64,000 nucleotides of DNA from Candidatus Roseilinea sp. (lineage in GTDB: Bacteria > Chloroflexota > Anaerolineae > J036 > Brachytrichaceae): NCBI GenBank assembly GCA_026003755.1, contig BPHV01000001.1, positions 1,400,393 to 1,464,392 on the forward strand. Reading direction: 5' to 3'. Every line of letters begins with the position of its first letter. Position 1 is the stretch's first letter. The notes below the pieces were generated by a model. The model worked only from the letters and a program-made list of their open reading frames with translations, was not told the DNA's origin and searched no databases. The position numbers and the translations under genes were made by a program. Of this stretch, positions 2,077 through 22,266 are shown piece after piece.

Positions 2077-2381
2077 TTAAGTGGTGGCCGAGGCGCTGAC
2101 CGGTTCCATGGCGCGGGTCGCTTGGAGAATTCCACGCAGCCGGCTAAACTCAGCGTCCTGCGGCCAGTGCGCACGCCAAGCGCCGCAAAGGGTGTTGCGA
2201 ACGGTGCGCCTAGGCGTCGGCTTCCCGCAGTGCGACGCTGTATGCCGGGCGGGAACCTGCCCAGCATATCCTGAACGAACGGGTCGGCACACTGGTAAGC
2301 CCGGCAAAACGCCCAGCCGCTCCACGCCTTGTGAATCTCGGTTACAATGCGTGCCGTGTCGCCGCGCTGGCGACGCCTCAC
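2077..2381 (-). CDS. Small hypothetical protein, reading frame broken twice
   Basis: Three minus-strand frames join into one protein-like sequence of 100 residues if one C is dropped from the CCC of the FPP codons (about 2245) and one C near 2212. The segments are then ...QDMLGRFPP, AYSVALREADA and RRTVRNTLCGAWRAHW..., ending VSASATT. The 305 bases minus two give an exact multiple of three. I do not recognise the family; it is rich in Trp, Arg and Ala with no membrane segment. The GTG at 2381 is only the longest possible start. Its upstream region overlaps the plus-strand small RNA. Existence of the gene is inference from the repaired frame. Confidence 0.33.
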
Positions 2382-2413
2382 GCCGCTATCTTTAGGATGG
2401 AGGTGATGTCACA

Positions 2414-2464
2414 ATGAGTAGTACGCAACCAAGCGCCGTGGCATCACCTCTAGCAACCCGCTAG
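2414..2464 (+). CDS. 16-residue peptide ORF within the candidate small RNA
   Basis: ATG at 2414 follows a near-perfect Shine-Dalgarno (GGAGGTG) at 10-base spacing and reads MSSTQPSAVASPLATR before TAG. The codons do not cluster for any one amino acid, so a classical amino-acid attenuation leader is not indicated. The end of the ORF lies inside the 2433-2477 hairpin, so a translating ribosome would open that structure. Whether it is translated is untested. Confidence 0.35.
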   Translation: MSSTQPSAVASPLATR

Positions 2465-2478
2465 AAAGCCACGGCGCG

Positions 2479-2513
2479 CAGGCCGGCCCCCTTTCGGGGG
2501 CCGGCCTGTTTTT
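2479..2513 (+). terminator. Strong intrinsic terminator (plus strand)
   Basis: Perfect 13-bp GC stem (2479-2491 with 2496-2508), TTTC loop, followed directly by TTTTT (2509-2513). The T-run is on the plus strand only, so it ends the plus-strand transcript. The same stem lies just past the stop codon of the convergent minus-strand gene and could also slow that transcript. Confidence 0.85.
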
Positions 2514-2926
2514 CAGCGCTTCCTCAGGAGCGTCTGCCGTGCTGCAGCGGCTGCCCCCCGCATCACTTCGACATTTCGGAAGCGCGGGCGCTTGGGCATC
2601 TCATACGCGTCCGGCAGCATGTCCATCAAGCGATCCAGGTCTTCGGCCGTAAAGCGCCGCGCGCTGTAAGCCAGGCTTTCCGCAAGCTGCGCCATGGGCA
2701 GCGCCCAGCTCATCTCGCGCCGCAGGGCATCGGCCTTGCTGTGATAGGCGCGCTTGTCCCAGGCGTTGGCGCTCTTCTCGGTGTCCTCGTGGATGCGCCG
2801 TAGGTTGATCGCGATCACGGCGCACATGTCCTTGCACAGGTCGCTGTCGTCGAGATGCGCGAACAGATGCTCGCGCACGATCTCCACGACCATGTTCAGG
2901 TCTTGGCTTCGCTCTCTGACCGTCAT
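2513..2926 (-). CDS. Hypothetical protein, 137 residues
   Basis: Not recognised. Soluble, Leu/Ala/Arg-rich and probably mostly helical, with Met/Leu-rich stretches (MAQLAESLAYSARRF, LDRLMDMLPDAYEMP) and no signal peptide or membrane segment. A TACAAT -10 box (2939-2934) lies 7 bases from the ATG with no Shine-Dalgarno, so the mRNA is probably leaderless. That promoter position is the best support for the start and for the gene being real. It lies downstream of mgtE on the same strand but has its own promoter. Confidence 0.7.
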   Translation of the reverse strand: MTVRERSQDLNMVVEIVREHLFAHLDDSDLCKDMCAVIAINLRRIHEDTEKSANAWDKRAYHSKADALRREMSWALPMAQLAESLAYSARRFTAEDLDRLMDMLPDAYEMPKRPRFRNVEVMRGAAAAARQTLLRKR

Positions 2927-3048: not shown

Positions 3049-4428
3049 TTAACCGCCGCCGCGTAGTTCGGGCAGCAGCAATCGCGCGATCATCAAGTAA
3101 ATGGCCAGGCCGGTGGCGTCCACCAGCGTGGTGATGAGCGGGGCCGAGACGATCGCCGGATCAATCTTGAAACGCTGGGCCAGCAGGGGGATCAACGACC
3201 CGATGGTGTTCGCCCAAGTACAGATGACGAGGATGGACAAGCCAACGACCAGGGACAGCGAGAAGCCGCTTCCCCATAGCTCGGCGCGCAGGAACGCAAT
3301 GACACCGAGGCTGGCGCCCAGCAGCAGTCCGACCATCAGTTCACGGGAGAGCACCCGGAACAGGTCGCCGGGTTGAATTTCGCGCAGCGCCAAGCCACGG
3401 ATGATCGTCGAGACGGTCTGGGCGCCCGTATTCCCGCCGGTGCCGATCAACAACGGGATGAAGAACGACAGCGCGACGACCGTCGCAAGTTCGTGCTCGA
3501 AGACGCGCAGCACGCTTCCGGTAAACGTCTCGGCGACGAACAGCAACACCAACCAACCCACGCGCGACCGCACCACCCGCGTGAGCGACGTTTTGAAGTA
3601 GGGCTTGTTTAGCACGCCCGGTTCGACCGCGCCGAAGCGATAGACGTCTTCAGTGGCCTCCTCCTCGATCACGTCCACCACGTCATCCACGGTGATGATG
3701 CCGAGCAGGCGGTTGTTCGCGTCCACCACCGGCAGCGCCAGGAAGTCATGTTTCCGCATCAGGTTGGCGACTTCCTCCTGGTCGGCGCCGACGGGCACGC
3801 TGATCACGTCGGGGTTCATGATGCTGCCGATCAGCCGGTTGGGTGAGGCGACGAGCAACTGCCGGAGCGACACCACGCCCACCAGCCGGCGCTCGCGATC
3901 TACGACGAATAGGTAATAGGGCATTTCATCGTCGGGGTTCCACTCGCGCAGCGCGTCAATCGCCTCCTGGGCCGTCATGCCAGGACGTAGGGTGAGGAAA
4001 CTGGTGGTCATCAGGCCGCCGGCGCTCTCGTCCGGATGGATCAACAACGGGCGCACGTCGTCGGCCTCCTCCATGCTGGCCAGCACCCGCGCTTGGCGCT
4101 CCTGCGGCAACTCGCCGATGACGTCCGCTGCGTCGTCCGGCTCCATCTCGTCGAGGATGCGCGAGAGCGTCCGGTCGTCCACGCGCTGGGCAATGTCGGC
4201 CTGGTCCTGGGCATCTAACTCGACCACGATGTCGGCAGCCGTTTCCGGGTCGAGGCGGGGAAGGAGTTCGGCCTGATCCTCGACGTCCAGTTCGTCGAAG
4301 ACCTCGACTTGTTCGTCTTGTCTCAGTCGCTCAAGCACCGCGATCGCATCTTGGACGTTGTTCCGATCGAGCGCGGCGCGGACTTGTGCAAGCGCGCGAT
4401 CAACCGTATCGCGTGTCAACTCGGCCAT
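3049..4428 (-). CDS. mgtE: Magnesium transporter MgtE
   Basis: Mg2+ channel/transporter of 459 residues, the normal family length. Domains in order: N-terminal helical superhelix (about 10-130, with the acidic repeats of the Mg2+-sensing domain), a pair of CBS domains (about 135-255), a connecting helix, and five membrane segments (about 285-455) carrying the MgtE signature around GTGGNTGAQ and the pore segment WANTIGSLIPLL. Start has AGGAG 8 bases upstream. Stands alone on the minus strand; no M-box riboswitch is visible in the 124 bases before it. In this family, cytoplasmic Mg2+ bound between the N and CBS domains closes the pore. Confidence 0.95.
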   Translation of the reverse strand: MAELTRDTVDRALAQVRAALDRNNVQDAIAVLERLRQDEQVEVFDELDVEDQAELLPRLDPETAADIVVELDAQDQADIAQRVDDRTLSRILDEMEPDDAADVIGELPQERQARVLASMEEADDVRPLLIHPDESAGGLMTTSFLTLRPGMTAQEAIDALREWNPDDEMPYYLFVVDRERRLVGVVSLRQLLVASPNRLIGSIMNPDVISVPVGADQEEVANLMRKHDFLALPVVDANNRLLGIITVDDVVDVIEEEATEDVYRFGAVEPGVLNKPYFKTSLTRVVRSRVGWLVLLFVAETFTGSVLRVFEHELATVVALSFFIPLLIGTGGNTGAQTVSTIIRGLALREIQPGDLFRVLSRELMVGLLLGASLGVIAFLRAELWGSGFSLSLVVGLSILVICTWANTIGSLIPLLAQRFKIDPAIVSAPLITTLVDATGLAIYLMIARLLLPELRGGG

Positions 4429-22131: not shown

Positions 22132-22151
22132 TTGCCCACAATCCAATACGC

Positions 22152-22242
22152 GAACGGGGAGTCCGCGGACGCGGGCTGAGAGGGCGCCCAATCCGGCGCC
22201 GACCCTTGAACCTGATCTGGGTCATGCCAGCGGAGGGAAACG
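22152..22242 (+). promoter_or_regulatory. TPP (THI-box) riboswitch
   Basis: All conserved THI-box blocks are present in order: CGGGGAG at the 5' end, GGGCTGAGAGGGC (pyrimidine-sensing helix), a variable GGCGCC stem, then GACCCTTGAACCTGATCTGG and GTCATGCCAGCGGAGGGAA. It binds thiamine pyrophosphate. An intrinsic terminator follows 25 bases later, just before the first gene, so TPP is expected to cause premature termination. Downstream genes are a TPP-forming kinase and a thiamine transporter, matching the expected regulon. Confidence 0.95.
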
Positions 22243-22266
22243 CGAAGCGCTATCGGCGGTGCTCAC

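Follow-up and report, generated by a model that had tools for sequence, protein, structure and literature searches.

In translational riboswitches and RNA thermometers that work through the Shine–Dalgarno sequence (SD), an anti-SD segment has two alternative partners, the SD and a third strand. For dual-function small RNAs such as RNAIII/hld and SgrS/SgrT, mRNA targets are known, and the encoded peptides are conserved. In the AapA mRNAs of Helicobacter pylori, and also in hok/Sok, metastable hairpins decide whether translation takes place (PMC6733600). The SD of the AapA3 toxin mRNA is hidden in succession during transcription, by an upstream anti-SD and then by an anti-SD located within the open reading frame (ORF) (PMC6733600).

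Here, we describe an RNA element of Candidatus Roseilinea sp. (Chloroflexota; Anaerolineae) that resembles each of these systems in part. It is located in a 64,000-nucleotide stretch of contig BPHV01000001.1 (positions 1,400,393 to 1,464,392), referred to below as the window. The element shares its three-strand logic with SD/anti-SD riboswitches and RNA thermometers, but no aptamer was recognised and no regulated gene lies downstream; instead, the ORF under control itself contains the anti-SD, and the switch forms the end of the transcript. Its likeness to RNAIII/hld and SgrS/SgrT lies in a terminator-capped small RNA with a short ORF (here predicted to be translated) and a structure affecting its own translation. 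Those RNAs have mRNA targets, whereas here the pairing segment co-evolves with the SD of the same RNA. With AapA and hok, the element has in common a small-ORF mRNA whose SD is hidden by upstream and in-ORF anti-SDs while the RNA is being made, although here this is the outcome of predicted folding and the upstream component is weakly supported. A 3′ anti-SD keeps the finished AapA RNA silent until it is trimmed, whereas the 3′ strand of the Chloroflexota RNA sequesters the anti-SD and the finished RNA is predicted to be open. AapA mRNAs encode a toxin, for which there is an antisense antidote, and the product here would be a polar, partly conserved peptide; unlike AapA and hok, the Chloroflexota RNA is single-copy and spread through its lineage. 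Judged by its modelled folds, it acts in the manner of the metastable locks on the SD of type I toxin mRNAs, yet it does not belong to them.

Architecture of the element in the window

The RNA is predicted from sequence to be approximately 160 nt long, extending on the plus strand from about position 2355 to position 2513 of the window. Its parts, in window coordinates, are the following.

2343..2348, plus strand: -10-like hexamer TACAAT; GGTTACAATG is kept across the genus
Near 2355, plus strand: predicted transcription start
2385..2390, plus strand: upstream box GCYAUC(C), possibly a weak first anti-SD (strand 0), from alignments and RNAalifold
2399..2412, plus strand: strand 1, consisting of SD GGAGGUGAU(G) and spacer UCAC; pairs with strand 2 and is invariant in one family alignment
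2399-2408, plus strand: SD GGAGGUGAUG
2414..2464, plus strand: 16-codon ORF MSSTQPSAVASPLATR with AUG at 2414 and a stop codon bordering the 3′ arm of the hairpin; frame, start, and stop are kept family-wide
2417..2432, plus strand: linker with NGU codons (AGU AGU at this locus), identified by codon bias in the family
2433..2450, plus strand: strand 2, the 5′ arm of P1 (GCGCCGUGGC) overlapping the anti-SD CAUCACCUC (2442-2450), from covariation and folding
2449..2465, plus strand: inner hairpin P2 (UCUAGC/GCUAGA, 2449-2454/2460-2465), from the fold; variable in the family
2468..2477, plus strand: strand 3, the 3′ arm of P1 (GCCACGGCGC) and putative releasing strand, from covariation and folding
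2478..2513, plus strand: intrinsic terminator, a 14-pair stem (2478-2509) followed by a U-run, from the fold

An earlier note on this DNA had drawn attention to a 16-codon ORF with a near-ideal ribosome site, a perfect helix further downstream, and a strong terminator, and all three are present. Because the 16S rRNA of this genome ends in ...GGATCACCTCC, which is complementary to GGAGGUGAU of strand 1 over 9 bases, the SD is near-perfect and the anti-SD is a copy of the 16S 3′ end. The nine-base complementarity reported in the note, between GAGGUGAUG (2400-2408) and CAUCACCUC (2442-2450), is indeed perfect, and its real extent is longer: 13 pairs, one of them G-U, join 2400-2412 to 2438-2450. 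The helix, hereafter P1, is a perfect 10-pair helix (2433-2442/2468-2477), and the anti-SD begins inside it. Strand 2 consequently has two alternative partners, strand 1 (2438-2450 with 2400-2412) and strand 3. The note had placed the anti-SD in the loop of the helix; it occupies an asymmetric internal loop together with the start of the inner helix P2, and not a simple apical loop. None of 200 dinucleotide shuffles is as stable as the fold of the window RNA (z = -9.26).

A family of small RNAs in Chloroflexota

By DNA similarity, the element is found in 9/9 genomes of the genus. A pattern scan of named genomes yielded more than 70 loci with the hairpin, nearly all of them in Anaerolineae, Caldilineae, and Thermoflexus. 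Since this pattern fixes both the SD and the anti-SD, variation in the two cores is invisible in those loci, and covariance-model matches were used to study it. A covariance search in related Chloroflexota, which the earlier note had suggested as a check, recovered the family: the first model (R1) matched 253 of the 396 sampled Anaerolineae genomes, nearly always with one copy per genome. Conservation at this level, in all nine genomes of the genus and in 253 of 396 Anaerolineae genomes, excludes chance as an explanation of the element.

Among 400 genomes of the phylum, 82 had an R1 match at E ≤ 0.001; the lowest-scoring of these matches cannot be told apart from noise. In a control set of 23 genomes from non-Chloroflexota records, the same model produced three weak matches with a maximum of 22.6 bits, and R1 matches below ~25 bits in other classes were therefore left uncounted. 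Three loci (L232, L233, and L235) were rejected as false members. A second model (R2), built from divergent members, matched 51 of 400 genomes at E ≤ 1e-4 and recovered several further families. One genome (G666) carries two copies of the divergent-type RNA (C7:19664-19766 and C4:333301-333405), while the others listed have one.

No Rfam 15 family reaches its gathering score at the locus, where sub-threshold matches fall mostly on the GC-rich terminator, and 18 diverse homologues gave no Rfam match. Chloroflexi-1 (RF01698), which is listed for Chloroflexus aggregans only, does not match either. A phage or mobile origin was also rejected: the pattern of SD and anti-SD occurs in just three viral contigs, 0/3 with the hairpin. 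Literature searches found no description of this RNA. Taken from sequence comparison, this is a previously undescribed family of predicted small RNAs that is present in most Anaerolineae and has relatives in other Chloroflexota classes. It adds an uncatalogued, single-copy, and widespread RNA family to a phylum for which the literature searches made returned almost no described small RNAs.

Conservation and covariation of the pairings

Homologous loci with unconserved pairing had been named in the earlier note as evidence against its reading, and we found the opposite. In 42 diverse sequences, 99.5 per cent of P1 cells are paired and both sides have changed in 7 of 10 pairs, and RNAalifold agrees on P1. 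In the divergent type, covariation is seen in 7 of 12 pairs of the hairpin arm that contains the anti-SD. The SD/anti-SD helix of this type is paired at 98 per cent; it shows G-U exchanges, and in one pair both sides have changed. P1 covaries, as far as the sequences tell, in two alignments of different lineages.

The SD and the anti-SD also fit each other within individual members. Among 122 members, cognate SD/anti-SD duplexes have a mean energy of -23.4 kcal/mol versus -21.4 kcal/mol for swapped ones, and 0 of 2000 permutations were as good, with shared ancestry not removed. In the 71 members whose SD and anti-SD cores are identical, the spacer fits the P1 arm of its own RNA better than those of others (0 of 5000 permutations, again with shared ancestry not removed). 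The eighth SD position forms an A-U pair in 103 members, a G-C pair in 11, and a G-U pair in 5, and is an unpaired A in 3. Anaerolineaceae-like members carry the SD GAGGAGGUGAUG with the anti-SD CAUCCCUCCUC, and another family combines GGAGGUGGUGC with GCACUACCUCC. Read from the alignments, both are coordinated shifts, and in the Anaerolineaceae-like members the registers of SD and anti-SD have moved together.

The upstream box GCYAUCC is conserved shortly before the SD, and pairing with the SD explains it only weakly. RNAalifold pairs YAUCCY with GGAGGUG, and at most positions only C/U changes are seen opposite G. The predicted upstream pairing of the SD is 0.76, versus 0.63 with a shuffled 5′ UTR. 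In these models, the box may be a putative weak first lock on the SD.

Predicted folding and a proposed mechanism

Comparison of family members establishes the hairpin, the SD/anti-SD pairing, the constraint on the ORF, and the terminator. The order in which these parts would act was examined by partition-function folding of growing chains across the family, using programs that ignore pseudoknots. When only the SD has been made, weak upstream pairing is predicted. Before strand 3 is made, the SD core is predicted to be locked downstream by the anti-SD in 95 per cent of members. In the full-length RNA, with strand 3 complete, the SD is predicted to be paired downstream in 7-8 per cent of members, and the RNA is thus not predicted to be held inert by a 3′ anti-SD as a full-length type I toxin mRNA is. 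If strand 3 is scrambled, the SD is predicted to be still locked in 92 per cent of members. The full-length minimum free energy structure contains P1 in 114 of 122 members. In the window RNA, folding favours the open state by 4 kcal/mol and predicts a locked nascent RNA. Upstream pairing is predicted for the released SD (0.67) and may leave it incompletely open. In many Anaerolineae models, the CACCUC in the loop of P1 is partly free, and a pseudoknot contact between loop and SD might form in the finished RNA.

Because the folding of growing chains agrees across the family, we propose a lock on the nascent RNA that is released by its last strand. On emerging, strand 2, the in-ORF anti-SD, would pair with the SD and block ribosomes on the nascent RNA. 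Strand 3, once made, would capture strand 2 and free the SD, and RNA polymerase would terminate at once, such that translation of the ORF would be permitted solely on the finished RNA. A translating ribosome would open P1 and halt at the 3′ edge of this hairpin; the RNA would then refold. This order of events in the cell, and the occurrence of translation, we infer from the folds and from the alignments. With somewhat better than even confidence, we consider the element to be best explained as a single-copy small mRNA whose start site is under three-strand control, locked while nascent and open when finished. Such an RNA would be a natural and clear-cut case of a start site predicted to be locked on the nascent RNA and released by the final strand before termination.

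The ORF and its NGU codons

Across the family, the ORF is 9-21 codons long, and length changes are in-frame. Its start codon comes after the spacer, and it ends, stop codon included, a median of 1.5 nt short of strand 3. In most Anaerolineae, the anti-SD motif GGCAUCACC encodes A-S-P; the divergent type and Thermoflexus have G-I-T or R-I-T at this place, and two further loci (L033 and L059) have R-H-H-L or Q-H-H-L, giving the peptide forms AVASP, GIT/RRITS, and RHHL over the anti-SD. Since the motif is read in all three frames across lineages, the anti-SD is kept as RNA and not as a part of the peptide.

The linker between the start codon and P1 has a codon bias. In 122 members, GU occupies codon positions 2-3 266 times versus 18 times out of phase, a pattern partly accounted for by independent preferences at codon positions 2 and 3. 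NGU makes up 36 per cent of linker codons in 127 non-redundant members, compared to 1.5 per cent in five neighbouring genes. The linker NGU codons are AGU, CGU, UGU, and GGU, leaving the amino acid free among Ser, Arg, Cys, and Gly. The bias may keep the linker from pairing with the GC-rich arms or may reflect a decoding effect. The ORF is predicted to be translated because the phase of GU in the linker argues for it, and codon phase, the stop at the edge of strand 3, and in-frame length changes together make the ORF look translated. What matters would be the translation of the ORF rather than the C-terminal half of the peptide. At one locus of the SSC4 chromosome (L062:5324-5376), the switch strands are intact, and the ORF is frame-shifted with a stop before the anti-SD (MSDCSNAAP, then stop); this is either a natural test case of the importance of the ORF or a sequencing error. 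The codon-phased NGU pattern, which leaves the amino acids variable, lends itself to direct tests in cultured Chloroflexota.

A more far-reaching proposal, which we put forward tentatively and regard as doubtful, is that the element is a housekeeping RNA of the whole phylum whose function lies in translating the NGU-repeat ORF as such, not in the peptide or in pairing with targets, and which would read ribosome availability or decoding state through its self-locking start.

Alternative roles

Candidate cellular roles are translation timing, a role in trans, a readout of ribosome state, and the peptide. It is unlikely that the element is a trans-acting dual-function small RNA, the loop anti-SD of which represses the SDs of other mRNAs and for which pairing with its own SD is a brake or a storage form. 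A terminator-capped RNA of small RNA size without a conserved neighbouring gene is consistent with this role, and in Anaerolineae the AUCACC within P1 is predicted to be unpaired and fits strong SDs. In other lineages, however, the anti-SD tracks the SD of the RNA in which it lies, not SDs in general (GCACUAUCUCC against GGAGGUGGUGC), the anti-SD GGGCAUCACC is without the CUCC core, and the anti-SD is buried in a stem. Moreover, an Hfq-type small RNA is unlikely because Hfq was found above the Pfam cut-off in 0 of 41 genomes of the class (three matches were weak and sub-threshold).

That the peptide is the product, with the switch merely limiting its dose as for a small regulatory or type I toxin-like peptide, is quite unlikely. 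The conserved frame and stop would agree with such a role, as would the N-terminus M-D-x-S-S and the AVASP segment, both of which recur within lineages; SD locks are, in addition, typical of type I toxin mRNAs (PMC6733600). Against it, the C-terminal half lies in three frames across lineages and thus lacks conservation at the protein level, the NGU pattern stays fixed while Ser, Arg, Cys, and Gly replace one another, and one copy per genome with a wide spread in the class is unlike mobile toxin–antitoxin loci. The peptides are also mostly polar, with a mean GRAVY of -0.18 and a best 11-residue window of 0.42 on average, unlike the hydrophobic, membrane-active peptides of type I toxins.

Slightly less probable still is a sensor or titrator of ribosome state, in which the SD and the mimic of the 16S 3′ end (AUCACCUC) compete with the real 16S end, and free 30S subunits or the load of ribosomes on NGU codons set the state, stability, or partners of the RNA. 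The nine-base fit of strand 1 to its own 16S 3′ end, the copy of that end in strand 2, the codon-phased NGU bias, and the phylum-wide presence of one copy per genome all fit this reading. Yet the 16S mimicry is lost in several lineages in which the anti-SD and its own SD have changed together, and no output in cis is visible.

Predicted transcription unit and neighbouring genes

The small mRNA under three-strand control that we favour comes with its own predicted signals of transcription. Sigma70-like promoter pairs matching at least 9 of 12 positions are found upstream in 76 per cent of 122 members versus 6 per cent of shuffles, and the -10 element is mostly 45-70 nt before the SD. In the window itself, the -10 hexamer TACAAT is clear, and the -35 element is judged weak because the consensus scan gave no 9/12 sigma70 pair. 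A terminator directly follows the hairpin in 115 of 122 members, compared to ~20 in shuffles. Of 74 loci, 37 have their next gene on the same strand and 37 on the opposite strand; these genes belong to many unrelated families, and there is no conserved neighbour. By these sequence features, the element is a stand-alone transcription unit composed of promoter, RNA, SD, ORF, hairpin, and terminator, with a predicted transcript. These results support the earlier note's view of a self-contained switch or dual-function RNA rather than a leader, as well as its observation that no plus-strand gene lies downstream, the next gene (2513-2926) being on the other strand.

A leader or attenuator controlling a downstream gene through terminator read-through is very improbable and was rejected, since the resemblance of a short ORF, hairpin, and terminator to attenuators and the 37 loci with a same-strand downstream gene are set against 37 others, and the window, with the next gene on the opposite strand, the lack of a conserved co-oriented downstream gene, and a terminator stem that has no conserved sequence in common with the switch strands.

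The convergent ORF in the window (2513-2926, minus strand; 137 aa) ends exactly at the terminator of the RNA and matches no Pfam family at E 0.001. Other nearby genes encode a PBP-like protein (558-1799) and an MgtE transporter (3049-4428). Elsewhere in the window, a TPP riboswitch (RF00059; 60.1 bits) is located at positions 22145-22255 on the plus strand.
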